This document shows, piece by piece, positions 472 through 26,860 of a stretch of DNA of 27,364 nt. Every line of letters starts with the position of its first letter. The first letter of the stretch is position 1. The stretch spans positions 1 to 27,364 of the IMG/VR virus record IMGVR_UViG_3300031658_000088, one strand, 5' to 3'. The DNA comes from a virus. The notes under the pieces were generated by a model that saw nothing but the letters and a program-made list of their open reading frames with translations, did not search any database and was not told where the DNA came from. Made by a program: the position numbers and the translations under genes.

Positions 472-473
472 TC

Positions 474-4255: not shown

Positions 4256-4267
4256 GAGGAGAACCTT

Positions 4268-4891: not shown

Positions 4892-4892
4892 T

Positions 4893-5171: not shown

Positions 5172-5181
5172 GAGAATTAAG

Positions 5182-5340: not shown

Positions 5341-5342
5341 GT

Positions 5343-5707: not shown

Positions 5708-5889
5708 TGTGGTCTACTGTATCGGAAGTGTATCCCACCTACTTCAGTCCCTCACAGGCTCCACAAGGCTCTGTGTTGGTCGTTGAACCACAAGTGATAC
5801 GTAGCTATGACTATAGATCAATACAGCCTCAGAAGCCACCATACGAGCTTACAGAGGATTACTACTCAAAGAGGTTATGGATATGTTAG
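5707..5889 (+). CDS. Hypothetical 60-aa protein, Tyr/Pro-rich
   Basis: Starts at a TAATG overlap with the previous gene and runs 7 nt into the next. The protein is rich in Tyr, Pro and Ser (SVLVVEPQVIRSYDYRS, then PPYELTEDYYSKR), with no hydrophobic helix. It shares the start MWS with its upstream neighbour but is otherwise unlike it. Supported mainly by tight packing in the operon. Confidence 0.45.
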   Translation: MWSTVSEVYPTYFSPSQAPQGSVLVVEPQVIRSYDYRSIQPQKPPYELTEDYYSKRLWIC

Positions 5890-6311: not shown

Positions 6312-6485
6312 ATGAATGATCGAGAGTTAACACAACAAGAGAAGAATGAGATAGCTGAGTTAGCAGCAGACAAAGCTTATGAAAGGTTCTACCTTGCAGT
6401 AGGTAAGTCAGTTATCAAGAAGATAATGTGGATCATTGGTGCTACTGCTGTAGCTTGTTGGTTATATTTTAATGGGGATATATGA
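6312..6485 (+). CDS. Small single-TM protein, holin candidate, 57 aa
   Basis: ATG follows the previous stop directly (TAA then ATG). The N-terminal 35 residues are charged and helical (MNDRELTQQEKNEIAELAAD). They are followed by KKIMWIIGATAVACWLYF, one membrane helix with positive residues before it, and a short tail. The stop overlaps the start of the peptidase gene. Size, single membrane helix and position directly before an endolysin fit a small holin or pinholin. The family was not identified, and the two-TM protein downstream is a competing candidate. Confidence 0.55.
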   Translation: MNDRELTQQEKNEIAELAADKAYERFYLAVGKSVIKKIMWIIGATAVACWLYFNGDI

Positions 6486-6874
6486 TGGGCTTTGAGTTAG
6501 GAAAGAATAGTATTAACAACATGGTAGGAATAGATGATCGACTCATTGATATTGCAGAACTCGCTATCACGCTTAGTCCTATTGACTTTGGCATTCCCTC
6601 TACTGGTGGGCTTCGCAGCACTGAAGACCAAGCTGCATTGTATACCTCTGGCAAATCTAAGTGTGATGGACGAACTAACAAATCATATCACCAAACAGGG
6701 AAAGCCATTGATGTGTATGGTTATGTTGACGGAAAGGCCAGTTGGGAAGCCCTTCACCTTACCACAATCGCCACTGCTATGCTGCAAGCATCCGCACAAC
6801 TAGGGTATGAATTAAAATGGGGTGGCTTGTGGAAGAGTTGGCAGGACATGCCTCACTTTGAGTTGAGGGATTAA
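6485..6874 (+). CDS. Endolysin, M15-family zinc L-alanyl-D-glutamate-type peptidase
   Basis: The pattern is that of the VanY/M15 peptidases used as phage endolysins (T5 type). It has an N-terminal helix, GLRST with an Arg, then SYHQTGKAIDVYG with the zinc ligands His and Asp (H70 and D77 counted from the ATG at 6482), and a C-terminal WGGLW...DMPHFEL with the third ligand H125. The enzyme would cut peptide stems of host peptidoglycan at lysis. There is no signal peptide, so holin-dependent release is expected, and holin candidates flank it. About 130 residues is usual for a single-domain enzyme. ATG 6485 has better spacing from GGGGA than 6482; either is possible. Confidence 0.88.
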   Translation: MGFELGKNSINNMVGIDDRLIDIAELAITLSPIDFGIPSTGGLRSTEDQAALYTSGKSKCDGRTNKSYHQTGKAIDVYGYVDGKASWEALHLTTIATAMLQASAQLGYELKWGGLWKSWQDMPHFELRD

Positions 6875-6875
6875 C

Positions 6876-7316
6876 ATGGGTTGGTTAAGTTTCTTAAATC
6901 CAATTGCAAGTTTAGGTACTACTTACTTAGAAGGTAAGAACCAAGTAGCTAAAGCTAAGTCAGAAGCAGCCATTGTAGGAATACAGGCAGACGCTGATGT
7001 TAAGACAGCAGGAGCTAGGGCAGCTAACAAGCTTGCTGATGATGGGCAAACACAAGACTTTAATTTAGATCTAGTAGCAATGCAGCAAATGGACAAGTCC
7101 TTGTTAGACGAGGTTATGATTGCCCTACTACTAGTTCCTATAGCAGCATCCTTCTTAGGGTATCAAGAAGAAGTTACAGCAGCATTTGAATCCTTTGCTG
7201 TTATGCCTGATTGGTATCAGTACTTAGTTATTGGTGTGTACGTTGTTAAGTTTGGTATGCGTGGTTTGTTAACTAAACTAGTCTCAGGAAAGTTAGGTAG
7301 TTTAAAACTAAAATAG
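6876..7316 (+). CDS. Two-TM holin-like protein, 146 aa
   Basis: Residues 1-75 begin NPIASLGTTYLEGK and form a charged helical region (KAKSEAAIVGIQAD). Two membrane helices follow, around VMIALLLVPIAASFLGY (about 86-102) and WYQYLVIGVYVVKFGM (about 118-133), then a basic tail. The order of amphipathic N-terminus and C-terminal membrane helices resembles the GTA-type/3-TM holin family often found beside phage endolysins. It directly follows the M15 peptidase, 1 nt after its stop. I favour holin; a structural or spanin role cannot be excluded. Confidence 0.55.
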   Translation: MGWLSFLNPIASLGTTYLEGKNQVAKAKSEAAIVGIQADADVKTAGARAANKLADDGQTQDFNLDLVAMQQMDKSLLDEVMIALLLVPIAASFLGYQEEVTAAFESFAVMPDWYQYLVIGVYVVKFGMRGLLTKLVSGKLGSLKLK

Positions 7317-7323
7317 TAGTCTA

Positions 7324-7352
7324 TTTACTTTTGATTAAAAATATGGTATAAT
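7324..7352 (+). promoter_or_regulatory. Sigma70-like promoter overlapping a gene start
   Basis: TTTACT (7324-7329, 4/6 match to TTGACA), a 17-nt spacer, then a perfect TATAAT (7347-7352). The next ATG is at 7355, so transcription would begin at or inside the start codon; no Shine-Dalgarno sequence precedes that ATG. In an AT-rich genome the -10 could be chance, but this is one of the longer gaps of the rightward block. Confidence 0.35.
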
Positions 7353-7354
7353 AT

Positions 7355-7999
7355 ATGAATTACTTAAATGCAGTAAACAAAGTTCTAAAGCGTTTACGAG
7401 AGCGTCCTGTCACATCAGTCTCTGATACTGAATACAGTGAACTCATTGGAATGTTTATTAATGATGCTAAACTTGAAGTAGAAGAAGCTTGGAACTGGTC
7501 AGCCCTCAGACAATCTCTAACTGTTACAACCACTAGTGGCGTGTTTAACTACGAGTTAAATGGTACACAGAATAATGTTAGTGTTCTTTATGTAACCAAC
7601 GTCACTTCTAATGCTTTCATGCAGTATCAATCTGCTGCTTGGTTTGATGACAAGTTTCTTACAGCAACAGTTGCAACAGGAACACCTTCCAACTATTCTT
7701 TTAATGGTGTTAGTACTGATGGAGATACTCTAGTAGATATTTATCCCAAGCCTGATGGTGTTTACACATTACGATTTAACGTGGTTGCTAGGACAGCAGA
7801 CCTTGAATCAGATGCTGATAAGTTTAATGTACCTTCTCATCCAGTAGTTATGTTGGCCTATGCTAAAGCTATTGAAGAGCGTGGTGAAGATAATGCTCAG
7901 ACAGGTAACACAGCATTCGCAAATGCACGAGCACTACTTAATGATGCTATTCAACTCGATGGTAACAAACATCCCGAAGAACTAATCTGGACTAGCTAA
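7355..7999 (+). CDS. Tail adaptor / tail tubular protein A-like (T7 gp11 type)
   Basis: 214 residues, the usual size for a T7 gp11-like adaptor. The opening NAVNKVLKRLRERPVTSV, with an acidic helix and WNWSALRQSLTV (about 48-59), is the characteristic pattern: an N-terminal helical bundle followed by beta strands, then LDGNKHPEELIW near the end. In T7 and P22 these proteins form the ring that joins portal to tail. The next gene, a nozzle-like protein, begins at the last base of its stop, as expected for this pair. No Shine-Dalgarno sequence is visible before the ATG. Confidence 0.7.
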   Translation: MNYLNAVNKVLKRLRERPVTSVSDTEYSELIGMFINDAKLEVEEAWNWSALRQSLTVTTTSGVFNYELNGTQNNVSVLYVTNVTSNAFMQYQSAAWFDDKFLTATVATGTPSNYSFNGVSTDGDTLVDIYPKPDGVYTLRFNVVARTADLESDADKFNVPSHPVVMLAYAKAIEERGEDNAQTGNTAFANARALLNDAIQLDGNKHPEELIWTS

Positions 8000-9540
8000 T
8001 GACAAAGCAATTACTATCAACATCAATTGCAGCTCCTGGCTTTTTTGGTTTAAACACACAGGAAAGTAGTATTACTTTAGCCAGTGGTTATGCCTTAGAA
8101 GCTACGAACTGTATCATTGATAAGTCTGGACGATTAGGATCTAGAGAAGGTTGGATAGACAGAACTACAGCGAGTACTGCTGTTAACCTTAAAGGACTGC
8201 ATGAGTTTGTAAACAACGCAGGAGTATCAGAGTTCATATCATTTGGTGCTAACAAAGTATACTCAGGTCTAGCTACACTATCAGACATAACAAACTCTGC
8301 CGCTATCTCAGCAGACAACTGGCAGTGTGCTACTTTAAGTAACAGAGTGTACATGTTCCAGCGAGGACATCATCCATTAGTAAGAGAATCAGGAGTAGTA
8401 CTAAAGAGAATTGACGCTGCTACTAATGCGGCTGGAACTCCTCCTCAAGCTAATGCAGTAGTGTCTGCTTATGGCAGGTTATGGGCTGCTGACATTGTAG
8501 GCGACAACCATACCGTATACTGGTCAGACTTAGTTCTTAATCATGGTGGTGGTATTAGATGGACAGGGGGTACTAGTGGTAACTTAGACATAGCTACCTC
8601 ATTCACTAAGGGTGGAGATTCTATAACTGCCTTGGCTGCATTCAACGGCTACTTAGTTATCTTCTGTAAGAACTCTATTATTATTTATCAGGACTCAGAC
8701 ACAAGTAATAATCAAAGCTACTTAGTACCTACAGATTTAAGACTAGTAGAAGTTATACATGGTGTAGGTTGTGTTGCCCGTGACTCAGTGCAGAACACTG
8801 GCTCTGATATTCTATTTTTATCTAACTCAGGTCTACGTTCTTTGAGTCGAGTCATTCAAGAGAAGTCTACTCCTATTGGTGACTTGTCTGTTAATGTTCG
8901 TGATGAAATTACAGCACTAGAAGCTACAGAACCTGTTGAGAATATTAAGAGTGTATACTCTCCAGAACATGCTTTCTATTTATTAAGCTTCCCTACTAGT
9001 GAGCAGATCTACTGCTTTGATATGCGAGGAAAGCTAGAGAACGGAGCAGCAAGAACTACTCGATGGGCAGGTTTATCTCACAGGGGAATGATAAGCACTA
9101 CTGATGGACGATTATTGTTTGGTCAAACTACAGGCATAGCTGAGTACAGTGGTTATCTTGATGATGACGAAACATATCGTATGCTCTACTACACAAACTA
9201 CTTTGACTTTGAGCAGCCCACTACAGTTAAGATATTGAAGAGTGTAGGCATCACGTTGATAGGTGGTTCTGGTCAGGCGTTTACAGTTAAGGCTGGTATT
9301 GACTACTCAGATGAGTACAGGTCTTATAACGCCACAGTTAAACAGACTGCTCTATCTGAATACAATGTTGGTGAGTATAACATTGCTGAGTATACAGGTG
9401 GTGGTGGTACTGACCGAGTTAAACTATCTATTGGAGGTACTGGCTCAGTGGTTCAATTAGGTTTTGAAACAGAGATTAGTGGCAATGAGGTTTCTATTCA
9501 GAAATTTGATTTATATATTAAAACAGGTAGGGTCATATAA
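7999..9540 (+). CDS. Tail nozzle / stabilisation-type protein, 513 aa
   Basis: The sequence is beta-rich throughout, starting GFFGLNTQESSITLASGYALEATNCII, a pattern I associate with P22 gp10-like stabilisation proteins and T7 gp12-type tail nozzles. Repeated blade-like segments follow (LRVY-like strands, RLWAADIVGDNHTVYWSD, YLVIFCKNSIIIYQD, YCFDMRGKLENGAARTTRWAG). The C-terminus has an imperfect repeat, SEYNVGEYNIAEYTGGGG. It would sit below the adaptor ring and form the short tail tube. Placement between adaptor and collar fibre supports this. It is shorter than T7 gp12 (794 aa), so the P22-like assignment is a better fit. Confidence 0.6.
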   Translation: MTKQLLSTSIAAPGFFGLNTQESSITLASGYALEATNCIIDKSGRLGSREGWIDRTTASTAVNLKGLHEFVNNAGVSEFISFGANKVYSGLATLSDITNSAAISADNWQCATLSNRVYMFQRGHHPLVRESGVVLKRIDAATNAAGTPPQANAVVSAYGRLWAADIVGDNHTVYWSDLVLNHGGGIRWTGGTSGNLDIATSFTKGGDSITALAAFNGYLVIFCKNSIIIYQDSDTSNNQSYLVPTDLRLVEVIHGVGCVARDSVQNTGSDILFLSNSGLRSLSRVIQEKSTPIGDLSVNVRDEITALEATEPVENIKSVYSPEHAFYLLSFPTSEQIYCFDMRGKLENGAARTTRWAGLSHRGMISTTDGRLLFGQTTGIAEYSGYLDDDETYRMLYYTNYFDFEQPTTVKILKSVGITLIGGSGQAFTVKAGIDYSDEYRSYNATVKQTALSEYNVGEYNIAEYTGGGGTDRVKLSIGGTGSVVQLGFETEISGNEVSIQKFDLYIKTGRVI

Positions 9541-10193
9541 TGAGTAACTATACAAAGTCCACAAACTTTGCAACTAAAGATAGCTTGTCAGCAGGTAATG
9601 CTCTCAAGCGTGTTAAAGGTGCAGAGATAGATGATGAATTTAATTCCTTAGCTACAGCAATAGCTACTAAGGCTAACTCAAACAATACAGCACTAACAGG
9701 TGTTCCCAGTGCTCCTACTGCTTCTGCTGGTACTAGCACTACTCAATTGGCTACTACAGCTTTTGCTCAAGGAGCAGGATTTGCAGCAGGTACTGTTATG
9801 GTGTTTCATCAAGCTGCTGCCCCTACAGGGTGGACTAAGGTTACCACTCACAATGACAAAGCATTACGTGTAGTGTCTGGTAATGGAGGAGGTAGTGGAG
9901 GTAGTACTGCATTTAGTACTGCGTTTAATCATACACACGCAGACAACTTTAGTGTAAGTAATCATACATTATCAATTGCTCAGATACCTTCTCACACTCA
10001 CTATTCAGGATGGCGAACAGGGTCTGGGGACGGCAGTGCAGGACAATATGCAACCCTGCATGAAGGGTCATCATCTGTTAATACTGGTTCAGCAGGTAGT
10101 AGCCAACCACATAATCATGGATTGGCTGGAAGTAATACTGCTAATAATATTCGACCTCACTATGTTGATGTGATCATTTGTTCAAAGAATTAA
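9540..10193 (+). CDS. Tail fibre with HxH collar domain
   Basis: The N-terminal region TNFATKDSLSAGNALKRVKGAEIDDEFNSL is the tail-attachment motif seen in many T7-like and marine fibres. A Thr/Ala linker follows, then the collar-type domain from AGTVMVFHQAAAPTGWTKV, with three HxH motifs (NHTHAD, SHTHYS, PHNHGL) and a terminal NNIRPHYVDVIIC. HxH clusters coordinate metal along the axis of fibre tips in T4-type proteins. The protein probably forms a trimeric spike or side fibre. It starts at the last base of the previous stop, and is a receptor-binding candidate additional to the adhesin at 878. Confidence 0.75.
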   Translation: MSNYTKSTNFATKDSLSAGNALKRVKGAEIDDEFNSLATAIATKANSNNTALTGVPSAPTASAGTSTTQLATTAFAQGAGFAAGTVMVFHQAAAPTGWTKVTTHNDKALRVVSGNGGGSGGSTAFSTAFNHTHADNFSVSNHTLSIAQIPSHTHYSGWRTGSGDGSAGQYATLHEGSSSVNTGSAGSSQPHNHGLAGSNTANNIRPHYVDVIICSKN

Positions 10194-10196
10194 AAT

Positions 10197-10478
10197 ATGA
10201 AAATTGTATTAACCTGTCCTCTAGGACATACGTGTGAGAAAGCAGTTGATGGGTACATTGAAAGGTGTGCTTGGTACACTAACATCAAAGGTAAAGATCC
10301 GCAGTCGGAGGAGATTATTGATCAATGGAAATGTGCTATGACTTGGCAACCAATTCTTTTAGTAGAGAATGCTCAGACAAATCGTGGACAGACACAAGCT
10401 TTAGAATCGTTTAGGAATGAAGTTGTAGCAGGACAACAGATTCTTGATCATAACAAACTAATTTCAAATAGAGAATAA
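10197..10478 (+). CDS. Conserved hypothetical phage protein, 93 aa, Cys-containing
   Basis: The N-terminus MKIVLTCPLGHTCEKAVDGY, followed by IERCAWY and WKCAMTW, contains four Cys (C7, C13, C24, C46) and one His. Then comes AQTNRGQTQALESFRNE. I recognise the pattern as conserved among marine short-tailed phages at this locus, without known function. The Cys spacing could hold a metal. It starts 3 nt after the collar fibre stop and precedes the internal virion proteins, so a virion or assembly role is plausible. Confidence 0.55.
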   Translation: MKIVLTCPLGHTCEKAVDGYIERCAWYTNIKGKDPQSEEIIDQWKCAMTWQPILLVENAQTNRGQTQALESFRNEVVAGQQILDHNKLISNRE

Positions 10479-10489
10479 GGAATAATATT

Positions 10490-11470
10490 ATGGGGCCAAT
10501 CTTAGGGTCAATTGTAAGTGCAGTAGCACCATCATTAATAGGTGGGTTATTCGGTAACAAGGGAGCTAATGCAGCATCACAAGGTGCTCAACAAGCTTCT
10601 CAGATGCAGATAGATGCAGCTAACAAAGCATACGAAGGGGGTACATATAAACCATATGGTGTTACCTCTGGGCTAGGCTCTACTCAGTTTAACAATGGTC
10701 AAGCTAGTTTCTCGTTAGATCCTCGATACCAACAAGCACAGAATCAAATGCAGGGACTAGGACAACAAGCCTACACTGCTGCTGGTGGTGACTATGGTCA
10801 ACTAGCTAATCAGTTCTACAACCAACAGCGTGAGATGGGTGCTGGTAGTCGTAATGCTGAAGCACTAGCACTAGGTGGTTCTATGTTTGGCTCTGGTCGA
10901 ACTGGTCTAATGTCTAGTGGAGATGCTCTAGGGTTTACTGGTGGTGGCATGATGTCCCCTGATGGTACTGGATTTGCTCAGGCATTTGCACAACAAGACT
11001 CAGCAGATCGTTACAATGCACAGCAACAAGCACAGCAGCAAAGGCAGATGGATATTAATATTGGTAATAGTATGTTCAATCAGTCTATGGGTCTTGATGC
11101 AGCAGGAATGGATCAACAAAAACTAGCTGGTATGTTAGGAGCACAGCGATCACAAGCTAATAATGCTGCTGGTGGTAACTTAGTCTCTGGTATGGGCGGT
11201 GGAGCAGAGTCTAGGCAGAACCAAGGTCTAGCACAAGCTGGTAAGTACACAGGTATTGGTAATGCACTAGGTAATATTGGTTGGGATAAGATAGGTGGTA
11301 TGCTTAACCCTGTAAGTGACTCAGATGTAGTCAATGCTTATGCTGGTAACATGAGTAGAGGTGGTGGACATCCTTCTATGGGTGGTTATTCAAACAATGG
11401 ATACACTCCTACGCCTTACCTAACAAGTAATCAAGGCATGGGTGCTAACTACACTGGACGGAACTACTAG
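10490..11470 (+). CDS. Probable internal virion / ejection protein, 326 aa
   Basis: The start follows AAGGAATAATATT. The first 25 residues (MGPILGSIVSAVAPSLIGGLFG) are hydrophobic and Gly-rich, as in membrane-entering ejection proteins. The rest is Gln/Ala/Gly/Met-rich (AASQGAQQASQMQIDAANKAYEG, then NAQQQAQQQRQMDI), a composition typical of T7 gp14-like core proteins. The last 60 residues are Gly/Asn/Tyr-rich and probably disordered. It leads a set of three genes with increasing length (326, 305, 966 aa), echoing the T7 gp14-gp15-gp16 order. Assignment rests on order and composition, not on a recognised domain. Confidence 0.55.
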   Translation: MGPILGSIVSAVAPSLIGGLFGNKGANAASQGAQQASQMQIDAANKAYEGGTYKPYGVTSGLGSTQFNNGQASFSLDPRYQQAQNQMQGLGQQAYTAAGGDYGQLANQFYNQQREMGAGSRNAEALALGGSMFGSGRTGLMSSGDALGFTGGGMMSPDGTGFAQAFAQQDSADRYNAQQQAQQQRQMDINIGNSMFNQSMGLDAAGMDQQKLAGMLGAQRSQANNAAGGNLVSGMGGGAESRQNQGLAQAGKYTGIGNALGNIGWDKIGGMLNPVSDSDVVNAYAGNMSRGGGHPSMGGYSNNGYTPTPYLTSNQGMGANYTGRNY

Positions 11471-11479
11471 GAGAATATT

Positions 11480-12397
11480 ATGGCTAGTGATGTAATGAGT
11501 TTATTTGGTTTAAATCCTAATGCTTTACAACAGCAAAGGACTAATGATGCAGTGACACAAGCTTCTGCAATGAATCCTTTCTTTGCTGCTGGTGCTGCTG
11601 GTGGTGCGCTTATGGGACAAAGTGTTAACTCTGCCCTTGGTCTACAGACACCAGAGATGGCACAAGCACAAGGTGTACAGGAGAGCTTAGAGGGTGCTGA
11701 CTTAACTGCCCCAGAGGGTATGCGAGATGCGGCTAGTAAGTTGATGCAAGCTGGTGATTATGCTACAGCTATGGACTTGTACTCAAGGGCTAGTAGTATG
11801 GTGGCAGCAGAGCCTCGTCCTGTGGCTGCAGTTAAGCCAACCTATGCAAATGCAAAGACTTATGTACTACCTTCTGTAGATGGTAAAGCTGGTAAGGAAG
11901 TATGGGGACTAACTGTTGATGGTGCTCTTATGATTGATACACCAGAGGGAAGGATTAACGCACCTGCTGGAACTCTTCCTTTGGTAGCTCCTGTAAGGCC
12001 ACTAGCATCTGACAGTAAGGTAGGAGATGCTGGCTCAGTTTTTAAGTTAGATGGTGCAAAGAATTATATGAAGAATGTTGGATGGATACGTAATGCAACT
12101 GATTCTATACTCAGTGATTCTGACGAAGACTTAGTAGGTCGTAAGATAATAGCAATTGCTGAGGATCTTAATACAGGTACAGGCAAAGTTCCTTATGATC
12201 AAGCATTTAAAACAGCTACGGAAATGGTAGGTGCTGGAATTTATAAAGAGGGTGGAGTAAATATCCCACTCATTGGTGATGTAATGGAAAATAGATTATA
12301 TAACCCTGATAATGTACCACCATCACATTATAAGTTAGCGCATGGCTACTGGGTTGATCCTAATGATAGCGCGGCTAGAATATACAAAGCAAATTAA
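11480..12397 (+). CDS. Probable internal virion protein, 305 aa
   Basis: Preceded by AGGAGAATATT. The N-terminal 100 residues are helical, with a Gly/Ala segment (FFAAGAAGGALMGQSVNSALG) that could insert in membrane, and a repeat-like helical hairpin (AASKLMQAGDYATAMDLYSRASSMV) resembling a TPR unit. The C-terminal part has a globular region ending YKLAHGYWVDPNDSAARIYK, a segment resembling conserved C-termini of phage internal proteins. Gene order suggests the middle of three ejection-type proteins. No enzymatic motif is seen. Confidence 0.5.
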   Translation: MASDVMSLFGLNPNALQQQRTNDAVTQASAMNPFFAAGAAGGALMGQSVNSALGLQTPEMAQAQGVQESLEGADLTAPEGMRDAASKLMQAGDYATAMDLYSRASSMVAAEPRPVAAVKPTYANAKTYVLPSVDGKAGKEVWGLTVDGALMIDTPEGRINAPAGTLPLVAPVRPLASDSKVGDAGSVFKLDGAKNYMKNVGWIRNATDSILSDSDEDLVGRKIIAIAEDLNTGTGKVPYDQAFKTATEMVGAGIYKEGGVNIPLIGDVMENRLYNPDNVPPSHYKLAHGYWVDPNDSAARIYKAN

Positions 12398-12407
12398 GGT
12401 ACATATA

Positions 12408-15308
12408 ATGGCTACTCGTACAAAGGAAGAATTAGACGCTGCTTATTCTGCACAACAGTCTGTTCAGCAACCTGTTCAGCAACCTGTTCAGCAACCTGTT
12501 CAGCAACCTGTACAGCAACCTGTTCAGCAACCTGTACAGCAATCTACTACTCGTACAAAGGAAGAACTAGACGCTGCTTATCTCTTACAGTCTGGTACAC
12601 CTGTTCAGCAACCTACTGAAGAAGCTTCTACTGAATCAGGTAAAGAGACTACCTTTGCTAGAGGATTTGTTGAGAGCAATAGCTTCACTCAGAACCTATC
12701 TGACATATGGATAGCAGGTACTGGTGAGGATAGTGGTCAAGCAATGTCTGGTCAGTTTAGGTGGGAAGATGATGATGGTAATTTTGATTTAAACATTAAG
12801 ACAAAAGATGATCTGTATGGGGACGACTTTGCTGATCTAACCTTTGATGAAAGGCGCGTAAGAATTAATGAGGTAAGGGCAGCAGAGATTGAAAGACTGT
12901 ATCCCAACCAAGAGGGTAGTACGTTTGGTAGGGTAGTTGGTTCTCTATTTGACCCTACTACCTTACTCCCTGTAGGTGCAACTTATACAGCTATGATGAA
13001 GATTGCAGGTGCTCTTGGTTTTTCTTGGAGTGCTGCTGATCAGTTTCAAAAGAAAGGGGAAGTAGATGTAGTAGAGGCAGGAGGACATGCCATTATTTCT
13101 GGCATAGCAGCTCCAGTCCTTGGTTATGGTATAGTAAAAACAGGCCAAGTCATTACAAAAGCAAGACTACCTAAGCAAATTGAAAAGTCTAACAAAGCAC
13201 TTGATGATTATGAAAATCAAATCAGTCATGAGATAGCTACAGCACAAGGTGGGTATAGTAATATTACTGTGGCACAGGCTAAGGCCAACGCACAAGATCA
13301 TTTAAAATTAACTCCTGAGCAGATAGCTAACGCTGAGAAGCTAACTAATCGTAGGACTGTAGTGCCTAAAAAAGCTGAGGCTATTGCTATTCAAGTAGCC
13401 CACAAAGATGCAAATATGTTGTCTCATTATGTTGAGAGTATGTCTTCTCGTATAGGCACACTGTCTAAGCCTATACAGAATGTGCTTCGTAAGTATGAGT
13501 CACGAGTACTGAGTCAGACACAGGCTAGGATGGATCAATCACAACCTTTTATTAAAGCTATGGGTGCATATAGTAATAAGGCTAAAGATGAGATTAAATA
13601 TCATCTACTGAATGGTGACTTTAAAGCTGCAAAAAGTTTAATGAATAAGGGCGGTACAAAGGAACTAGATGATCTGTCAAAAATGCTCTATAAAGATGGT
13701 AAAAGAATGGAAGTTTTTACTAATGCAAATAGAGGTAAGGGTGTTGCAAAGTTTAAAGCACTAGACAATTACTTCCCACGTAGAGTTAAAGACTATGATG
13801 GTCTTAGGTTAGCTATTGGAGGCAAGAGCCAAGCAGCAGGTACTGCCCTTGATGACGCTATCAATGCAGCCATGACACAAGAAGGTGTTAAGACAGTGCA
13901 AGAGCTTTCTGAAATGGCTTTGACTACAGCAGTAATGAAAGCTACTAACACTGGATGGAGAAAAGGTATTGCTCCTAAAGGGTCAGAAGGTAAGCGTACA
14001 TTACAAGAAGTACCCCCTGAGTTGGCTAAGTTCTATGACGATTCTATATCATCTTTGACTACCTACGTTCAACAGTCCACTAAAATGTTTGAGAGGCAGT
14101 CACTTCTAGGTAAGACTGATTTGTTACCAGTAGGTCAGTATGATGAATCTTCAAACTTATGGAAACTCATGGGTAAAGAGGTTAGTGAGAACAGACTATC
14201 GGGTGAGGCTCATAGGGAATTAAAAGAACTACTTCATTCTCGTTTTACCAATGCCGAGAAAGCTATGAATAAAACATTAGCTGCTATTAAGGACATTGGA
14301 TACATGTCTTCTCTTGGTCAATTCAGATCAGCAATAACTCAGCTTAAAGACGTAGGAACATCTGCCTACTTACATGGGGTTATCCCTACAATCAGGGCTG
14401 TGTTTAAAACTAAGAGTACATACGTACAAGATGCAGGTCTTATTAACAATGTATCAGCAGAGATGACTCAAACTGGTACTAGGAAGTGGTTAGATAGAAC
14501 ATTAAAATATAGTGGCTTTAGATTTTCTGATAGGTTTGGTAAGAAGGTACTACTAGAAGCGTCAATGCTTTCTGGTAAGAGGTTAGCCTCTTCTCCTAAA
14601 GGTATAGCAAAGTTAAAGAAGAAGTATGGTGAGGCTTATGGTAATGATTTCACTAAACTAATTAATAGTTTAAGGAATGGTACTGATGATGCCAATACAG
14701 AACTGTATAGATTCCATGAGTTATCAGATACTCAGCCTATCTCAATGCTTGAACTACCTCAAGGATTTGCTGATAACCCTGACATTGGTCGCCTTGCTTA
14801 CGCCTTAAAATCATTTGGATTAAAGCAGGTAACCTTAATACATAACAACATTATTAAAAGAGCGAAGGGTGGTGATAAATTAGGAGCTACTAAGGAAGCA
14901 CTAAAGTATGCCTCCTTCATAGGAATAGCTGGTGGTACTGTTGATGAGCTTAAAGGTGTGTTCAGTGGTGAGGCTTTTAATGCAGAAGATATACCTGATA
15001 GAGTAATAGAGAACTTAACTAGTTTGATGTTTATTAATAAGTACTCCATAGGTGACATAAAGAAAGGGGACATGTCTGGTTGGATTGGAGATGTAGTTAC
15101 TCCTCCACTTGGGCCTTTAGAAGCAGGTATAAAAGAAGTATCAGGATTTACTGAGGAGCGAGACATTAATGACCCTAGCTTTGGAGATGACCTATTGAAA
15201 ACAATGCCTGTCATGGGTCGTATTCTATATGATTGGTATCTTGGAGGTAGGGAAAAGGCTATGGACAAGAGGAGTGATGAACAACAAGCGGATCTTAGAG
15301 GGGAATAA
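12408..15308 (+). CDS. Large internal virion / ejection protein, 966 aa, with PVQQ repeats
   Basis: I start it at 12408 (AAGG 8 nt upstream); an upstream ATG overlaps the previous gene. The N-terminus carries TRTKEELDAAY twice, separated by seven 4-residue units (one SVQQ, six PVQQ). About residues 180-250 contain hydrophobic helices, a long helical middle follows (about 280-760), and a late hydrophobic segment appears near residue 840 (SFIGIAGGTVDEL). I see no lysozyme/SLT transglycosylase motif such as that in T7 gp16. Size, helical content and place at the end of the structural block suggest the largest ejection protein. A short intergenic hairpin follows. Confidence 0.55.
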   Translation: MATRTKEELDAAYSAQQSVQQPVQQPVQQPVQQPVQQPVQQPVQQSTTRTKEELDAAYLLQSGTPVQQPTEEASTESGKETTFARGFVESNSFTQNLSDIWIAGTGEDSGQAMSGQFRWEDDDGNFDLNIKTKDDLYGDDFADLTFDERRVRINEVRAAEIERLYPNQEGSTFGRVVGSLFDPTTLLPVGATYTAMMKIAGALGFSWSAADQFQKKGEVDVVEAGGHAIISGIAAPVLGYGIVKTGQVITKARLPKQIEKSNKALDDYENQISHEIATAQGGYSNITVAQAKANAQDHLKLTPEQIANAEKLTNRRTVVPKKAEAIAIQVAHKDANMLSHYVESMSSRIGTLSKPIQNVLRKYESRVLSQTQARMDQSQPFIKAMGAYSNKAKDEIKYHLLNGDFKAAKSLMNKGGTKELDDLSKMLYKDGKRMEVFTNANRGKGVAKFKALDNYFPRRVKDYDGLRLAIGGKSQAAGTALDDAINAAMTQEGVKTVQELSEMALTTAVMKATNTGWRKGIAPKGSEGKRTLQEVPPELAKFYDDSISSLTTYVQQSTKMFERQSLLGKTDLLPVGQYDESSNLWKLMGKEVSENRLSGEAHRELKELLHSRFTNAEKAMNKTLAAIKDIGYMSSLGQFRSAITQLKDVGTSAYLHGVIPTIRAVFKTKSTYVQDAGLINNVSAEMTQTGTRKWLDRTLKYSGFRFSDRFGKKVLLEASMLSGKRLASSPKGIAKLKKKYGEAYGNDFTKLINSLRNGTDDANTELYRFHELSDTQPISMLELPQGFADNPDIGRLAYALKSFGLKQVTLIHNNIIKRAKGGDKLGATKEALKYASFIGIAGGTVDELKGVFSGEAFNAEDIPDRVIENLTSLMFINKYSIGDIKKGDMSGWIGDVVTPPLGPLEAGIKEVSGFTEERDINDPSFGDDLLKTMPVMGRILYDWYLGGREKAMDKRSDEQQADLRGE
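12459..12542 (+). repeat. In-frame 12-bp tandem repeat (7 units)
   Basis: Seven copies of CCTGTTCAGCAA, with small variants (first unit starts TCT; two units read GTA for GTT), encode SVQQ and six PVQQ units. An eighth partial copy lies near 12600. The array sits between two copies of the codons for TRTKEELDAAY, so it may have grown by slippage or unequal recombination. Confidence 0.95.
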
Positions 15309-15335: not shown

Positions 15336-15350
15336 GTTTCCACTGGAAAC
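15336..15350 (-). repeat. Palindrome copy 1, GTTTCCACTGGAAAC
   Basis: A perfect 7-1-7 palindrome overlapping the first base of the stop of the last leftward gene. Its flanks are reversed compared with most other copies: on the minus strand it is followed by TTTATA. The location suggests an operon-end or terminator-type role here. Confidence 0.9.
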
Positions 15351-20006: not shown

Positions 20007-21608
20007 TCATAGTTCTTTCTCCTCTTCCTTCTCAAGCATACGACCAGTGCTATGACTGTAAGCTAACTCATTAGCCTTGCCTGTGATACCACAGAAGCGG
20101 TTCTTTAGTACACGTACATGAGTAGTGTTGCGTGTCTCCTCATCCTCTGCCTGTCCATTACGTTCAAGACCTAGAACCATATCACTAAGCTGTGCTATAG
20201 AACCAGAGCCACGTAGCTGTGACAGGCTGGATGCTGCTCCCTCTTCATGACCTTTACCATCTGGCCTCTTGAGGTGAGACACTACGAACAAGGCTATGCC
20301 TGTCTCTTGCACTAGCATACGTAGCCTAGTCATGATCTCATCGAGTGCCTTACGTTCATCACCATTAGCCTGTGCTGATACTACAATGGATACGTGATCG
20401 AGCACAATATACTTACACCCTAACCCCTTAGCCATGTAACGAACACGAGCAACGATGTTATCAACACCAGTGGAACCGAAGTGATCAAACAAGAACACAC
20501 GATCAGTGCCTAGTGTGGCATCGAAAGCATCCTTACGTTCCTCATCAGTTGACACAGTATCAGGTAGATGCAATGGCTTGTTAGCAGCAAGGGACATTAA
20601 AGATAGAGCACTCTTCTTAATACTCTCTTCAAGGAATAGTATTCCAATATTATCTTCTGTCTTACTGATGATCTGCCATATGATCTCACGCATGAACTGA
20701 CTCTTACCTAAGCCTGACCCTGCTGTGACTGTAACTAACTCTCCATAACGTATGCCATAGGTGAGCTTGTTGAGTCCATCAAAAGGATAGAGACATTCTG
20801 CTGGTGCTATAGGTTTATTAACTTCATCCCATAGACTAGACCCTGCAATGATTCCATCTGGTACGAATCGTTCTGAAGACCACCACCTGTCAATGAACTC
20901 TTTAGTTCTACCGAACTTTAGATAATCATTAGCATCCTTCTCATCCTTAGTATGCTTATAGATCTTAGTCTTACCACCGAACAACTCAGCCACTTGGTTA
21001 GCAGCCTTGACACCCACCTCATCTGAATCGAAGCATACCACTATGGTATCGAAGCTATCGAGATACTCATACGAGGATCGACAGTCCTTCAGTGCAGCAC
21101 TACTGCCATTCTTAATTGATACGACAGGGTACTTACTGCCAAGCATCTGATATGCAGACAGCGCATCATACTCACCCTCAGTGATAGTAATATACTTACC
21201 ACCTTTAGGGAATAGGTTCTGTCCAAACAGTACTGTGTCTGACCAAGCACCTGATGTAAAGAACTCCTTCTCAGGTGTCCGAGTCTTAGCTCCCACTAAG
21301 AAACCATCCTTATCATGGTAACCAAAGATCATACGCTCGCCATGTAACTGGGCTTTGTATGTCTTACATGTGTCACTTGATATGCCACGAGCGACAACGC
21401 TCTTGTATGGCTTGGTGTTTAAGTCTTCTTTAGTTCTATCAAAGTTTCCAGTGGAAACATTCTTACTTGGTACATCCATACTGTCTATCTCCTTGCCTCT
21501 AGTTCTAGTCTCACAGGCGAAGCAAGTGCTCCACCCCTTATCATCAATACTCAGTGCGTCACTGCTTCCGCAGTCGTCACAGGGTAAGTGTTTTTTGACG
21601 AAGGCCAT
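20007..21608 (-). CDS. Primase-helicase (T7 gp4-like)
   Basis: 533 residues. Zinc finger C10-C13...C29-C32 (CDDCGSSDAL, STCFAC) for primer-site recognition; TOPRIM with TEGEYDAL (E144) and CFDSDE (D194, D196); linker; RecA-like helicase with Walker A GSGLGKS (K302), catalytic LEES (E327), Walker B IVLDH (D404), SHLKRP (H445) and NRFCGITG (R504, arginine finger). All catalytic residues of the T7 enzyme have counterparts. It primes lagging strands and unwinds DNA at the fork. Start set at 21608 (GAGGAT upstream); an ATG 21 nt earlier lacks a good ribosome site. Palindrome copy 2 lies inside and encodes VSTGN (51-55). Confidence 0.95.
   Translation of the reverse strand: MAFVKKHLPCDDCGSSDALSIDDKGWSTCFACETRTRGKEIDSMDVPSKNVSTGNFDRTKEDLNTKPYKSVVARGISSDTCKTYKAQLHGERMIFGYHDKDGFLVGAKTRTPEKEFFTSGAWSDTVLFGQNLFPKGGKYITITEGEYDALSAYQMLGSKYPVVSIKNGSSAALKDCRSSYEYLDSFDTIVVCFDSDEVGVKAANQVAELFGGKTKIYKHTKDEKDANDYLKFGRTKEFIDRWWSSERFVPDGIIAGSSLWDEVNKPIAPAECLYPFDGLNKLTYGIRYGELVTVTAGSGLGKSQFMREIIWQIISKTEDNIGILFLEESIKKSALSLMSLAANKPLHLPDTVSTDEERKDAFDATLGTDRVFLFDHFGSTGVDNIVARVRYMAKGLGCKYIVLDHVSIVVSAQANGDERKALDEIMTRLRMLVQETGIALFVVSHLKRPDGKGHEEGAASSLSQLRGSGSIAQLSDMVLGLERNGQAEDEETRNTTHVRVLKNRFCGITGKANELAYSHSTGRMLEKEEEKEL
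21444..21458. repeat. Palindrome copy 2, GTTTCCAGTGGAAAC
   Basis: A perfect palindrome inside the primase-helicase coding region, read on the minus strand as VSTGN between zinc finger and TOPRIM. Flanking bases differ from the intergenic copies. Confidence 0.9.
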
Positions 21609-21792
21609 TATTAAAATCCTCGTATTCATGTTCAGTCATGAAGTGACTAAGCACTAGGTCTAATGACATTAATAAATCCCAATCAGAAGCACTAACATTA
21701 GCACTCTCATCATGACGATTCGCTAGGTAATAACTCTTCAAGCAATCAACAGTGATTGCATTAGCATCATCTACATTTACTTCAATCTTCAT
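21577..21792 (-). CDS. Conserved hypothetical 71-aa protein
   Basis: MKIEVNVDDANAITVDCLKSYY leads a helical acidic protein (SDWDLLMSLDLVLSHFMTEHEYEDF). I have an impression of a conserved small phage family at this place upstream of the primase, without known function. It overlaps the primase-helicase start by 32 nt and its own start overlaps the previous stop. No metal site or membrane helix. Confidence 0.6.
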   Translation of the reverse strand: MKIEVNVDDANAITVDCLKSYYLANRHDESANVSASDWDLLMSLDLVLSHFMTEHEYEDFNNGLRQKTLTL

Positions 21793-22027
21793 ACCTCTTC
21801 TCCTTTAAATTAGAATCGTGACTAAGCACAATACTTACTGGTTTACCTGTCTCCTCTGACTTGTCTAATGCATCACACATGATGTTATACAACTCAGTCT
21901 CTGTATCTACACTGTGCTTAGTGTACTTAAAGAACTCATACATGGGTGACAGGAAGAACATGGTAACAGAACCTAGTACCGCAAGTCCAGCAGCAAGCCA
22001 CACTACCTCCGTAAACATACTAAGCAT
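21782..22027 (-). CDS. Small membrane protein with acidic C-terminal domain, 81 aa
   Basis: The N-terminus has one strong membrane helix (VVWLAAGLAVLGSVTMFFLS, about residues 8-27), then a charged soluble part (YKHSVDTETELYNIMCDALD-like helix, then KPVSIVLSHDS). Topology is probably N-out, C-in. ATG overlaps the stop of the HTH gene; MFTEV at 22018 is an alternative start. An inner-membrane early protein could act on a host target or anchor replication, but the sequence does not say. Confidence 0.55.
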   Translation of the reverse strand: MLSMFTEVVWLAAGLAVLGSVTMFFLSPMYEFFKYTKHSVDTETELYNIMCDALDKSEETGKPVSIVLSHDSNLKEKRYED

Positions 22028-22298
22028 CAGCCATTGCCTCCTCTATTTGTTTCTTCTTTCGTTCATTGATCTCTACAAATAACATCTTATCATGTACGTG
22101 AAAGGCACAGGTATTAGCTGACCTACGTATCAACTTAGCTATGTCATTGTAAGATACATTCAAAGCACGTAGCTTAACTATACGAGATAAGTCAGCCTCT
22201 GTTATAGGGTTACTACTACTTAGCGGCCTCTTTGCAAGTACTGACTTAGTAGGTACGTTGTAAGACTCTTTGATCTTAGGTTTGAATACTAAGCTCAT
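22020..22298 (-). CDS. Helix-turn-helix DNA-binding protein, 92 aa
   Basis: Start at 22298 after a strong AAGGAGGAGGAGC; an upstream in-frame extension would overlap the previous gene and is not needed. Residues 31-68 form a homeodomain-like helix-turn-helix: ITEADLSRIVKLRAL, a turn at NVSYNDIAKLI, then RRSANTCAFHVHDK as recognition helix. The first 30 residues are basic and probably disordered (VFKPKIKESYNVPTKSVLAK); the end is a charged helix (NERKKKQIEEAM). It is the only evident sequence-specific DNA-binding protein in the window, hence a candidate partner of the palindromes. No experimental homologue recognised. Confidence 0.6.
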   Translation of the reverse strand: MSLVFKPKIKESYNVPTKSVLAKRPLSSSNPITEADLSRIVKLRALNVSYNDIAKLIRRSANTCAFHVHDKMLFVEINERKKKQIEEAMADA

Positions 22299-22467
22299 GC
22301 TCCTCCTCCTTAAACTCAGCAATGATCTTAACAAGAGCATCAGCCTTACCTTTATTATAAGAACCAAAGGGTTCACGCATTGTACTACCTTGGGTGTAGA
22401 TGTCTAGCTCAGTAGTTAACTGCTCTAGCTTACGCGCCCGTTGAATCTTCTGCTTCAGTGTTAACAT
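22276..22467 (-). CDS. Hypothetical 63-aa helical protein
   Basis: MLTLKQKIQRARKLEQLTTEL starts a charged helical protein, with GSYNKGKADALVKIIAEFKEEE as a second helix. GAGGAGAGAGA precedes the ATG closely. It overlaps the upstream gene by 38 nt and the HTH gene by 23 nt. Perhaps a coiled-coil early protein; unknown family. Confidence 0.5.
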   Translation of the reverse strand: MLTLKQKIQRARKLEQLTTELDIYTQGSTMREPFGSYNKGKADALVKIIAEFKEEEHELSIQT

Positions 22468-22618
22468 TCTCTCTCTCCTCTAATCGTTGTTGGCATTGGC
22501 ATAGGTAATCAATAGCTTTAGCCATAGTCTCATGGTCAGCAGTACCTGTAGTCCTACGCCATATTTCTTTAGCATGATTACGTTCAGTAAGTAACTGTGC
22601 ATACGTTTTATCTTCCAT
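22430..22618 (-). CDS. Hypothetical 62-aa helical protein
   Basis: MEDKTYAQLLTERNHAKEIWRR leads a helical hairpin-like protein (ETMAKAIDYLCQCQQRLEER). AGGAG lies 7 nt before ATG 22618 and 4 nt before the in-frame ATG 22621, so 22618 is preferred. The start overlaps the stop of the zinc-binding small gene. The acidic end continues into the next gene in another frame. Function unknown. Confidence 0.5.
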   Translation of the reverse strand: MEDKTYAQLLTERNHAKEIWRRTTGTADHETMAKAIDYLCQCQQRLEERENVNTEAEDSTGA

Positions 22619-22779
22619 CATTCATCTCCTATAGTCAACAAGTCAGCACGATTAATAGTGGGTATCTCTTCACCCATGTCATGACAACAGTCAGTACATA
22701 AATCTAAGTAACCGCCTGACTCATATCTTCTCGTTGATTCATAATCTGTTAACTCACAGTCACAACTAACACATCTCAT
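22618..22779 (-). CDS. Small zinc-ribbon-like protein, 53 aa
   Basis: MRCVSCDCELTDYE gives a C-x-x-C-x-C group, and GGYLDLCTDCCHDMGEE gives a second C-x-x-C-C-H group; together they look like a small zinc ribbon. The end is acidic (IPTINRADLLTIGDE). Its ATG lies 13 nt after palindrome copy 3, preceded by GGGGTTGTT. It is the first gene after the internal promoter, so it may head the replication transcription unit. Such mini zinc fingers often bind host RNA polymerase or DNA, but that is inference. Confidence 0.6.
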   Translation of the reverse strand: MRCVSCDCELTDYESTRRYESGGYLDLCTDCCHDMGEEIPTINRADLLTIGDE

Positions 22780-22792
22780 AACAACCCCAATT

Positions 22793-22807
22793 GTTTCCAG
22801 TGGAAAC
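22793..22807 (-). repeat. Palindrome copy 3, at predicted transcription start
   Basis: A perfect copy, two bases downstream of the -10 hexamer of the promoter at 22810-22838, therefore covering its expected start point. The flank CAATT on the plus-strand side matches copies 4-7. Confidence 0.92.
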
Positions 22808-22809
22808 TT

Positions 22810-22838
22810 ATTCTAACATAAGGGTTTACTTATGTCCA
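22810..22838 (-). promoter_or_regulatory. Strong sigma70-like leftward promoter with inverted-repeat spacer
   Basis: On the minus strand: TGGACA (5/6), 17-nt spacer TAAGTAAACCCTTATGT, TAGAAT (5/6). The positions 22816-22835 hold ACATAAG-6 nt-CTTATGT, a perfect inverted repeat between and touching the hexamers. It lies in the 116-nt gap before the zinc-ribbon gene, one of the few real gaps in the leftward block, and would serve the helix-turn-helix and replication genes. Palindrome copy 3 covers the start site, so two possible operators overlap it. Confidence 0.7.
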
Positions 22839-22895
22839 GATCTGTGATAGAATAGAACTCTTGAGTTAACAAGTTAGCAACACGTTATAATATTA

Positions 22896-23246: not shown

Positions 23247-23437
23247 ACACCACCTCCTAACCACTCATCATATGTTAATTTAAAATCATCTTCACCTAAA
23301 TTACTAAGGTATATTTGATAGGGCGCATCATGTCTCTCGCCCTTGGCTGCACTGTCCTCATACAATGACATGACAGCATCAATGAATGCTTTGTCCTCAG
23401 CCTGTCTCTTGAGTACCCTTGCTTTAGTGTTAGTCAT
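23243..23437 (-). CDS. Hypothetical 64-aa protein
   Basis: Start at 23437 after GGGAGAATAGTA. MTNTKARVLKRQAEDKAFID gives a basic-acidic helix, then DAPYQIYLSNLGEDDFKLTYDEW. ATGA overlap with the next gene. It overlaps the previous gene by 8 nt. Small helical early protein without recognised relatives. Confidence 0.5.
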   Translation of the reverse strand: MTNTKARVLKRQAEDKAFIDAVMSLYEDSAAKGERHDAPYQIYLSNLGEDDFKLTYDEWLGGGV

Positions 23438-23711
23438 TACTATTCTCCCTGTCATACTTAGCTGCCCGTACTGCAATGATCTGCTCTTCTATCGTACCCT
23501 CTATAGCTTCTGCTATCTCTGTCTCTAGCTGTACCCTAAGAAGTAATGAAGCACAGATCGCATTAGTGATGAGAGTGTCTAAGGGTTTGTTCTCCCTTGT
23601 ATCACCGCTCTTGGTGTAGATGTCACACAATAATGTACGAACCTTCTCCATTTTAATTACATCACCTTGGTTCCAATTGTTTCCAGTGGAAACTTTATTT
23701 GATTCACTCAT
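23430..23711 (-). CDS. Hypothetical 93-aa early protein carrying palindrome-encoded peptide
   Basis: Start chosen at 23711 (MSESNKVSTGNNWNQG) because GAGGAG lies 7 nt upstream and ATGAGTGA overlaps the previous stop. With this start, palindrome copy 4 is coding and yields VSTGN. A later ATG (MEKVRTLL) would place the palindrome upstream, like the other copies, but its ribosome site is poorer. The body is helical (LLCDIYTKSGDTRENKPL, ICASLLLRVQLETEIAEAIEGTIEE). Unknown function. Confidence 0.5.
   Translation of the reverse strand: MSESNKVSTGNNWNQGDVIKMEKVRTLLCDIYTKSGDTRENKPLDTLITNAICASLLLRVQLETEIAEAIEGTIEEQIIAVRAAKYDRENSND
23679..23693 (-). repeat. Palindrome copy 4
   Basis: A perfect palindrome with CAATT and CTTTATTT flanks on the plus strand, near the start of the 93-aa gene. 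TTGGTTCCAA next to it (23668-23677) is a weak half-like repeat. Confidence 0.92.
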
Positions 23712-23874
23712 TACCATACTCCTCATTTACTTTATACAATAGTCCACCATCAGGGTTAGGCAACGCCACAACAAACCCTACATCTAAAGCTCTACGCAAT
23801 ATCTCCTGCTCATCCAACTCAAAATTAAAAGTAGGTGCGAACTTGTTAAACAATTCCTTGCTAGTAGTATACAT
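23704..23874 (-). CDS. Hypothetical 56-aa protein
   Basis: Start at 23874 (MYTTSKELFNKFAPTFNFEL), with AGGGTATTAAT upstream and the previous stop one base away. The middle ELDEQEILRRALDVGFVVAL looks like a small helical regulatory-type domain, the end (LLYKVNEEYGNE) is acidic. Coupled start of the next gene (ATGAGTGA overlap). Function not recognised. Confidence 0.45.
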   Translation of the reverse strand: MYTTSKELFNKFAPTFNFELDEQEILRRALDVGFVVALPNPDGGLLYKVNEEYGNE

Positions 23875-24278: not shown

Positions 24279-24293
24279 GTTTCCACTGGAAAC
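24279..24293 (-). repeat. Palindrome copy 5 (centre base reversed)
   Basis: Perfect arms, plus-strand centre C rather than G, same CAATT and CTTTTA flanks. It lies between the GP88 stop (24296) and the start of the 66-aa gene. Confidence 0.92.
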
Positions 24294-25044: not shown

Positions 25045-25059
25045 GTTTCCAGTGGAAAC
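25045..25059 (-). repeat. Palindrome copy 6, within a 38-bp duplicated block
   Basis: A perfect palindrome in the gap between the 67-aa gene and GP88, 17 nt upstream of the GP88 start. It is part of a 38-bp block (25029-25066) that is identical to 25263-25300. Confidence 0.95.
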
Positions 25060-25278: not shown

Positions 25279-25293
25279 GTTTCCAGTGGAAAC
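25279..25293 (-). repeat. Palindrome copy 7, second 38-bp block
   Basis: A perfect palindrome between a 29-aa membrane protein gene and the 67-aa gene, within the second copy of the 38-bp block (25263-25300). On the minus strand TTGATA-17 nt-TATAGG occurs just upstream, a possible weak promoter inside the small gene. Confidence 0.95.
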
Positions 25294-25549: not shown

Positions 25550-25876
25550 TTAATTGTTTCCAGTGGAAACTTTTAGTTTTTGTAAGGCTGTAGCTGTCAT
25601 GCATTTGGCTTGCAACAATCTAGATTTTAAATCATCACGCTGTCGCAATTGATCAAATTCCATTTGCAATAATTGCTGCAAGAATTTTACAGTTCTTATA
25701 CGCTTCTCAATATCAGACATACCGCGAGCAATGATACGCTCATCCATATCAACAACATCCGCAGAATATTCTGTTTGATATTGTCGAATTTGTATAACGG
25801 AATCATCAATAGACGCGATTAATTGGGCAACTTTTTGCTCAGATTCTAGCGCATTATGGTAGCTTAATTCAGACAT
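25550..25876 (-). CDS. 108-aa coiled-coil-type protein
   Basis: Start at 25876 (MSELSYHNALESEQKVAQLI), preceded by AAGGATTATT. The body is predominantly helical with heptad-like stretches (ERIIARGMSDIEKRIRTVKF, LLQMEFDQLRQRDDLKSRLL), suggesting dimerisation. The last codons LQKLKVSTGNN are the in-frame reading of palindrome copy 8, followed directly by TAA. Function unknown; no membrane helix. Confidence 0.5.
   Translation of the reverse strand: MSELSYHNALESEQKVAQLIASIDDSVIQIRQYQTEYSADVVDMDERIIARGMSDIEKRIRTVKFLQQLLQMEFDQLRQRDDLKSRLLQAKCMTATALQKLKVSTGNN
25556..25570 (-). repeat. Palindrome copy 8
   Basis: A perfect palindrome at the extreme 3' end of the 108-aa gene (coding VSTGN on the minus strand), 15 nt upstream of the start of the 51-aa gene. 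Confidence 0.92.
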
Positions 25877-25932
25877 AATAATAATCCTTAATAGGGAATA
25901 AAAGGGGAAACAATACAAGGGGAATTTGCATT

Positions 25933-25947
25933 GTTTCCAATGGAAAC
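25933..25947 (-). repeat. Palindrome copy 9, GTTTCCAATGGAAAC
   Basis: Perfect arms with A at the centre. It lies between the first early gene (ending 25952) and the 108-aa gene, in a 75-nt gap. Purine-rich GGGGAAAC on the plus strand at 25902-25909 is a half-site-like sequence. Confidence 0.9.
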
Positions 25948-26460: not shown

Positions 26461-26475
26461 TGAGAATGATTCTCA
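26461..26475 (-). promoter_or_regulatory. Fur-like box, TGAGAATGATTCTCA
   Basis: A perfect 7-1-7 palindrome, 12 of 14 matches to the Fur 7-1-7 consensus TGATAAT-N-ATTATCA. It lies about 33-47 nt downstream of the predicted start point of the leftward promoter, in the 5' leader of the first early gene. It would act as a roadblock if bound. Confidence 0.6.
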
Positions 26476-26514
26476 TTTGCATTAGCATCATCTCTTTGCT
26501 GCTGCTGCCCCCTG

Positions 26515-26795: not shown

Positions 26796-26810
26796 TGAGA
26801 CTCATTATCA
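26796..26810 (+). promoter_or_regulatory. Fur-like box, TGAGACTCATTATCA
   Basis: Matches TGATAAT-N-ATTATCA at 12 of 14 positions; the 19-mer starting at 26791 matches the classical GATAATGATAATCATTATC box at 15 of 19 by my count. It lies 23 bp from the next box. Confidence 0.6.
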
Positions 26811-26818
26811 TTTACGAA

Positions 26819-26833
26819 TGAGAATCATTTACA
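26819..26833 (+). promoter_or_regulatory. Fur-like box, TGAGAATCATTTACA
   Basis: 11 of 14 matches to the 7-1-7 form. Its core AATGAGAATCATT (26817-26829) also occurs on the minus strand at 26465-26477, within the first box. ATCATTTAC occurs twice, 17 bp apart, at 26807 and 26824. Confidence 0.55.
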
Positions 26834-26845
26834 TATATTATAATT

Positions 26846-26860
26846 GTTTCTACTGGAAAC
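26846..26860 (-). repeat. Palindrome copy 10, GTTTCTACTGGAAAC
   Basis: One mismatch in the left arm, with the usual TAATT flank. It lies upstream of the early promoter, 12 nt from the Fur-like pair. Confidence 0.85.

Follow-up and report, generated by a model that had tools for sequence, protein, structure and literature searches.

In the temperate Streptomyces phage phiC31, conserved inverted repeats are spread across intergenic regions and are bound by a known phage repressor. The stoperators of the Cluster A (L5-type) mycobacteriophages comprise many short sites distributed across the genome, only a minority of them at promoters, and their class differs among related phages and changes with a phage protein (PMC6550527). 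These asymmetric 13-bp sites, mostly found in one orientation, are read by the immunity repressor of a temperate phage (PMC6550527). In the Cluster K mycobacteriophages, repeats are located directly 5′ of start codons, with an inverted-repeat consensus that differs by subcluster; the SAS, an asymmetric 13-mer, adjoins the start, and the ESAS consists of two 17-bp repeats separated by a spacer (PMC3203893). For dispersed sites in related podoviruses, a literature search found nothing closer than these mycobacteriophage papers. Marine podoviruses that lack an RNA polymerase of their own must time their genes via the host polymerase, and to our knowledge the means by which they do so are largely unknown.

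The window analysed here is the whole of a 27,364-base viral contig. Its structural genes are encoded on the + strand (67-15308), and a convergent leftward block encodes a nucleotide kinase, phosphoesterase, HNH nuclease, exonuclease, SSB, DNA polymerase and primase/helicase, together with many small early genes. On the basis of the helicase, the nearest cultured relatives are the Pelagibacter phages HTVC115P and HTVC103P (~53% identity), followed by members of the Zobellviridae such as SIO1 (46-47%), and no near DNA match to the window was found among cultured phages. A search for T7-type RNA polymerases (PF00940), which recovers that of HTVC119P, found none in 17 related records, and use of the host polymerase and sigma70-type promoters is therefore expected. 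The leader preceding the leftward operon contains three AATGANAATNATTCTC-like palindromes resembling Fur boxes (26462-26477, 26797-26812 and 26817-26832), a type for which the two strands together give six matches (expected: 0.47). A 12-nt tandem repeat, CTGTTCAGCAAC, is found at 12436-12555 inside a + strand gene coding for 988 amino acids.

A 15-mer palindrome, GTTTCCACTGGAAAC, is present in ten copies in the window when up to one mismatch is allowed (Table 1; expected: 0.55), a number reached in none of 100 shuffles. All ten are located in the leftward half of the window (P = 3e-4), and within the leftward operon 7/9 copies fall in the non-coding 3.9% of bases (P = 5e-9), usually in the gap that separates a stop codon from the following Shine-Dalgarno sequence. 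Five of the ten lie a few bases upstream of a Shine-Dalgarno sequence with a shared AATT; the remainder include intragenic copies, the promoter copy and the one at the operon end. Identity between the 25045 and 25279 copies extends over 38/38 bases. Counterparts of the operon-end site can be observed in the related loci L054, L027 and L055, and the L054 relative of gene 23430-23726 keeps its own palindrome at the corresponding site, read in another frame. At the site in the primase/helicase gene, the 95% clade has a changed serine codon, with TCA in place of the ACT or AGT of the window's clade, which gives the 95% clade its own site class there. The palindromes are almost certainly real and functional. 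They were rejected as ordinary promoters, promoter elements being present at the 22793 copy only. They were likewise rejected as terminators; many copies are followed on the + strand by TTTATTT, which lends them a terminator-like look, but the 6-bp stem is weak and the run of T belongs to the AT-rich surroundings of the stop codon before it. A comparison with Rfam matched the palindromes to no known RNA family.

Table 1. Positions of the palindromes, the internal promoter and the associated genes in the window
Feature	Position	Strand	Remarks
15-mer copy	15336..15350	.	Between last leftward-operon gene and its terminator (15330-15311), convergent junction
Primase/helicase	20007..21629	minus	First large replication gene past internal promoter
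15-mer copy	21444..21458	.	Inside primase/helicase gene
HTH protein	22020..22298	minus	92 aa from ATG 22298
53-aa Cys-rich (zinc-ribbon-like) protein	22618..22779	minus	First gene past internal promoter
15-mer palindrome GTTTCCACTGGAAAC	22793..22807	minus	Over predicted start point of internal promoter
Sigma70-type promoter	22810..22838	minus	-35 TGGACA 22838-22833; 17-nt spacer; extended -10 TGTTAGAAT, hexamer 22815-22810
Spacer inverted repeat ACATAAG-N6-CTTATGT	22816..22835	minus	One arm overlaps TGn of extended -10
AACTC-NN-GAGTT palindrome	22856..22867	.	Upstream of internal promoter
15-mer copy	23679..23693	.	Few codons into gene 23430-23726
15-mer copy	24279..24293	.	Between stop codon and Shine-Dalgarno
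15-mer copy	25045..25059	.	Between stop codon and Shine-Dalgarno
15-mer copy	25279..25293	.	Between stop codon and Shine-Dalgarno
15-mer copy	25556..25570	.	Intergenic, before Shine-Dalgarno
Hairpin, 13 pairs	25906..25938	minus	After first gene, uses right half of palindrome; terminator- or attenuator-like
15-mer copy, 1 mismatch	25933..25947	.	Just past first-gene stop; overlaps terminator-like hairpin
First gene of leftward operon, 152 aa	25952..26410	minus	New helical family with conserved Arg/Lys
15-mer copy, 1 mismatch	26846..26860	.	Leader 5′ of first gene; 0.4 kb upstream of any gene

The copy at 22793, the third from the left, coincides with an internal promoter of the leftward operon. 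An earlier note on this DNA had read TGGACA-17-TAGAAT on the minus strand as a promoter and placed this copy at its predicted start point, and both readings hold. The promoter matches the consensus at 10/12 positions, with a TG one base 5′ of the -10, and since the 15-mer begins 2 nt past the -10, the predicted +1 (~22803) would fall inside it. Consensus promoters are no more frequent in the window than expected (34 found vs 34.4), so the match alone is no evidence; it is the conservation of its position that is informative. The -35 and extended -10, with a spacing inside the 16-18 nt of sigma70-type promoters, are kept in relatives. When the 110 bases 5′ of the zinc-ribbon gene were aligned over more than 50 relatives, the position of the extended -10 was found to be kept down to 83% helicase identity. 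Among the loci with 83-100% helicase identity the hexamer reads TAGAAT, TACAAT, TATAAT, TAAACT, TAAGAT or TATTAT, mostly with TGT just before it, and the -35 is of variable quality and weak in L045. Both promoter and palindrome are kept at the zinc-ribbon gene in L018, L038, L049, L109 and L118, the last four having a palindrome version of their own, and the sequence just downstream of the -10 is GTTTCCAGTGGAAAC in L018, ATTTCCTAGGAAAC in L038, L049 and L109, and GTTTCCTAGGGAAAT in L118. The upstream alignment revealed no palindrome at the internal promoter in L017/L054/L116 or L030/L045/L055.

The earlier note had further described this as the one place where the 15-mer sits as an operator would, and only the 22793 copy indeed has a promoter within the top 0.1% of positions ending 0-4 nt upstream, the other nine ranking between 4.6% and 96% at operator distance. 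As claimed, the promoter also marks the boundary between the small early genes and the group of zinc-ribbon, HTH and replication genes. The proposal of a promoter switch stands in part: the 15-mer on the promoter start is operator-like, but a local switch would be only a portion of the system, as nine further copies are distributed promoterless along the operon. The perfect inverted repeat ACATAAG/CTTATGT exists inside the spacer, but its proposed role as a second operator was rejected. The window contains eleven 7-bp inverted repeats of this kind, a chance-level count (11-33 in shuffles), and outside the window's own clade this one is retained in L018 and L019 alone. The spacer repeat is thus probably incidental. 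A possible second regulatory element is the AACTC-NN-GAGTT palindrome upstream of the promoter, at the place of which many relatives carry CTCTTAAGAG or a similar repeat, some of them without a 15-mer there. The HTH protein might bind at this palindrome and its CTCTTAAGAG equivalents.

Repeated palindromes were sought blindly in related loci, where shuffles and loci without families give 2-3 copies. The relatives carry their own palindrome class at 4-10 dispersed places each: the 95% clade has GTTTCCYWRGGAAAY, most of the 84% clade GTTTCCTAGGAAAY and the 60% clade GTWACT-N4-AGTWAC. The class GTTTCCTAGGAAAC is even-centred. The eight copies of the 36-kb relative L027 are confined to the early/replication stretch, its structural genes being free of them. 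Orthologous sites change class in place: between L055 and L027, 4/4 differ in class although their upstream flanks are 88-95% identical, and 2/3 differ between L030 and L027. Loci of the 60% clade (L058, L060, L068, L081 and L084) harbor 6-11 sites each, one of which lies just 5′ of a tRNA-like gene in L058 (18858) and L060 (9502). A two-palindrome cassette, GGGGATATCCCC followed by TACCCTTTAGGGTA, is found before several start codons at 8459-9495 of L086. The L007 locus is a mosaic, in which four sites around the first gene are RTTTCCACAGGAAAT and five distal sites are GTTTCCASTGGAAAC, while its first gene is 30-34% identical to that of the window. This looks like a recent swap which the distal sites have not followed.

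The palindromes are quite likely to be recognised as double-stranded DNA. In the GTWACT-N4-AGTWAC sites of the 60% clade, the two W positions would be complementary in 37 distinct contexts and mismatched in 34, so what is conserved there is the half-sites and not a stem; this, the weak hairpins formed by even-centred sites (-0.6 to -2.7 kcal/mol), the different reading frame of the L054 counterpart and the changed codon at the helicase site of the 95% clade underlie our preference. Stem-loops in RNA, located by ribosome-binding sites and acting on translation or mRNA processing as has been proposed for start-associated sequences, would account for the half of the copies just 5′ of a Shine-Dalgarno sequence with a common AATT, for the ability of the 15-mer to fold into a 6-bp stem with a triloop (-4.3 kcal/mol), and perhaps for the excess of G-T over A-C ends (46 vs 11) among the asymmetric sites of classes A-E in transcript orientation. 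This explanation is nevertheless unlikely, as W pairing is not kept in the 60% clade, the even-centred classes fold weakly, and the other copies are found in coding sequence, past the last operon gene, on the start of the promoter and 0.4 kb 5′ of any gene. The virion polymerase of phage N4 uses hairpin promoters, and a stem with a 3-nt loop upstream of genes could serve a phage RNA polymerase in the same manner. The chance of this is close to negligible, given that the even-centred classes have no triloop, the asymmetric sites occur in both orientations, and a search for single-subunit RNA polymerases (PF00940) was positive in the control phage and negative in the records.

The best candidate for the protein that reads these sites is the product of the first gene of the leftward operon, which belongs to a family with the invariant residues R32, K67, K75, R81, K88, R107 and K118 and is flanked by palindrome sites in most relatives. 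Over 16 non-redundant loci, site-class distance correlates with first-gene distance when the helicase is controlled for (partial Mantel test; r = 0.66; p = 0.0002, a significance that relatedness among genomes can overstate). The correlation extends to sites more than 3 kb from the first gene (r = 0.54) and is weaker for distal sites when the A/B clade is left out (r = 0.26; p = 0.03). Values for the HTH, zinc-ribbon, 71-aa, DNA polymerase and SSB genes are 0.02-0.15, and the exonuclease gene also correlates with site class (r = 0.50; n = 11). A natural swap can be observed between L124 (same contig as L030) and L122 (same contig as L027), in which identity is 77-97% for most of the early and replication genes but 30% for the first gene. 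The swapped first gene shares 54% identity with that of the clade having its site class. The covariation is imperfect, however: the first genes of L113 and L118, which carry odd-centred sites, are closer to those of other classes, and in L007 the first gene has changed while five sites remain of the old class. Because of these misfits, and because Mantel tests can overstate significance, the covariation is a strong lead and not proof, and we regard the case for the first-gene product as the reader as evenly balanced. Pfam, PHROGs and fold searches recognised no DNA-binding domain in the family, and two structural models (pLDDT 74.5 and 84.3) gave nothing above the background for helical proteins. 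The match to the TetR-fold protein FasR (Z 4.5; rmsd 5.1 over 106 residues) lies among unrelated helical proteins, and for a TetR-like fold Foldseek gave an E value of 0.56. Relatives of two first-gene variants were sought in the cultured-phage collection, and a low-sensitivity scan covered 84,980 bacterial and archaeal genomes; none were found in either.

The earlier note had instead proposed autoregulation by the HTH protein. This reader was rejected, as HTH alleles do not track the class of the sites (partial r = -0.08 with the first gene controlled for and 0.14 with the helicase): L007, L018 and L051 have HTH proteins 29-40% identical to that of the window yet carry mainly the same 15-mer, and L027 has one that is 68% identical and a different palindrome. 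A 118-aa version of the HTH open reading frame that starts at a GTG (22020-22376) overlaps the upstream gene and is probably over-extended, homologs starting at ATG 22298 (MSLVFKPKI).

A strong hairpin with the loop GAAGTCT follows the first gene in most relatives (L038, 1631-1690; L109, L113, L116 and L120). Its stem varies with compensation (CTCT/AGAG, CTTT/AAAG and CTCC/GGAG), and it is often built from a palindrome half-site and sometimes located between two whole palindromes. This structure is possibly an attenuator or terminator that gates the operon.

On balance, we favour the palindromes being dispersed operators for a dimeric regulator encoded by the phage, most likely the first-gene product, that would combine repression of a promoter with a block to elongation. 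The regulator, made first and from a gene flanked by sites, would be subject to negative feedback. When bound at the 22793 copy, it would sit over the start point of the internal sigma70 promoter, so that transcripts of the zinc-ribbon, HTH and replication genes could not be initiated there. The nine remaining sites are mostly in short intergenic gaps, and at these it would impede RNA polymerase already moving along the operon in a stoperator-like manner; the site at the operon end could hold convergent transcription apart. As the regulator accumulates, early and replication transcription would be turned down; down-regulation of the leftward operon by the sites is, in our estimate, somewhat probable. 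A lytic-phase shut-off is favoured over immunity because an integrase was not found in the 17 related records, all of them fragments. More tentatively, and at rather less than even odds, the first-gene proteins may constitute a new family of sequence-specific DNA-binding regulators of apparently non-temperate, uncultured marine podoviruses. Some ten dispersed palindromes would then act as operator and roadblocks through which the early/replication operon is silenced, and natural swaps of the gene would exchange specificity, with the sites following.

Other readers can be considered for the same sites. Were they true L5-type stoperators, the operators of a temperate-phage immunity repressor whose gene lies outside the fragment, the dispersed intergenic sites, the single site on a promoter and the shift of class with a phage gene would all be as in Cluster A (PMC6550527). 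This is distinctly unlikely, since the 17 related records, all of them fragments, contain no integrase by a search positive in 14/14 control genomes, and the low-sensitivity scan of bacterial and archaeal genomes likewise recovered no first-gene relative. A host DNA-binding protein exploited by the phage would require no phage gene at all, but nearly identical phages (helicase 97%) differ in class, and do so together with a phage gene, which makes a host factor very unlikely. Gene shuffling could also spread repeats, as 'palindrome plus ribosome-binding site' cassettes that serve as linkers and have no regulatory reader, and accessory genes do lie between identical cassettes, such as the 25045 and 25279 copies. 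It is highly improbable that this explains the family, as orthologous sites change class within flanks that are still largely identical, and copies are also present within conserved genes and at the promoter.

If dispersed operators with a phage-encoded reader are confirmed, this type of control would extend beyond temperate phages, with a reader from a new protein family. The locus offers a concrete, testable system in its defined promoter, ten sites, candidate regulator and natural swaps of specificity.

Among its cultured relatives, SIO1, ICBM1 and HTVC103P/115P share with the window phage a primase/helicase of 46-53% identity and replication and structural genes on opposite strands, but no repeated palindrome above shuffles was found in SIO1 or ICBM1. 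The likeness to phiC31 lies in conserved intergenic inverted repeats dispersed in one phage genome, and is one of arrangement. In contrast to the Cluster K repeats, the single 14-15-bp palindromes of the window are also located in genes, at the promoter start and at the operon end. A further parallel is with Cluster A. Nine of the ten window copies have no promoter at operator distance, one lies by its position as an operator within a conserved promoter, and site class varies, imperfectly, with a candidate reader (r = 0.66, helicase controlled). The window sites differ in being palindromes within one operon, with asymmetric variants both ways (46 G..T and 11 A..C), in records that are fragments and yielded no integrase, and in a candidate reader without a known DNA-binding fold. 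By analogy, while the asymmetry of the sites and the recognisable repressor in a temperate phage set the Cluster A system apart, the window system appears to work as its operators and stoperators do.
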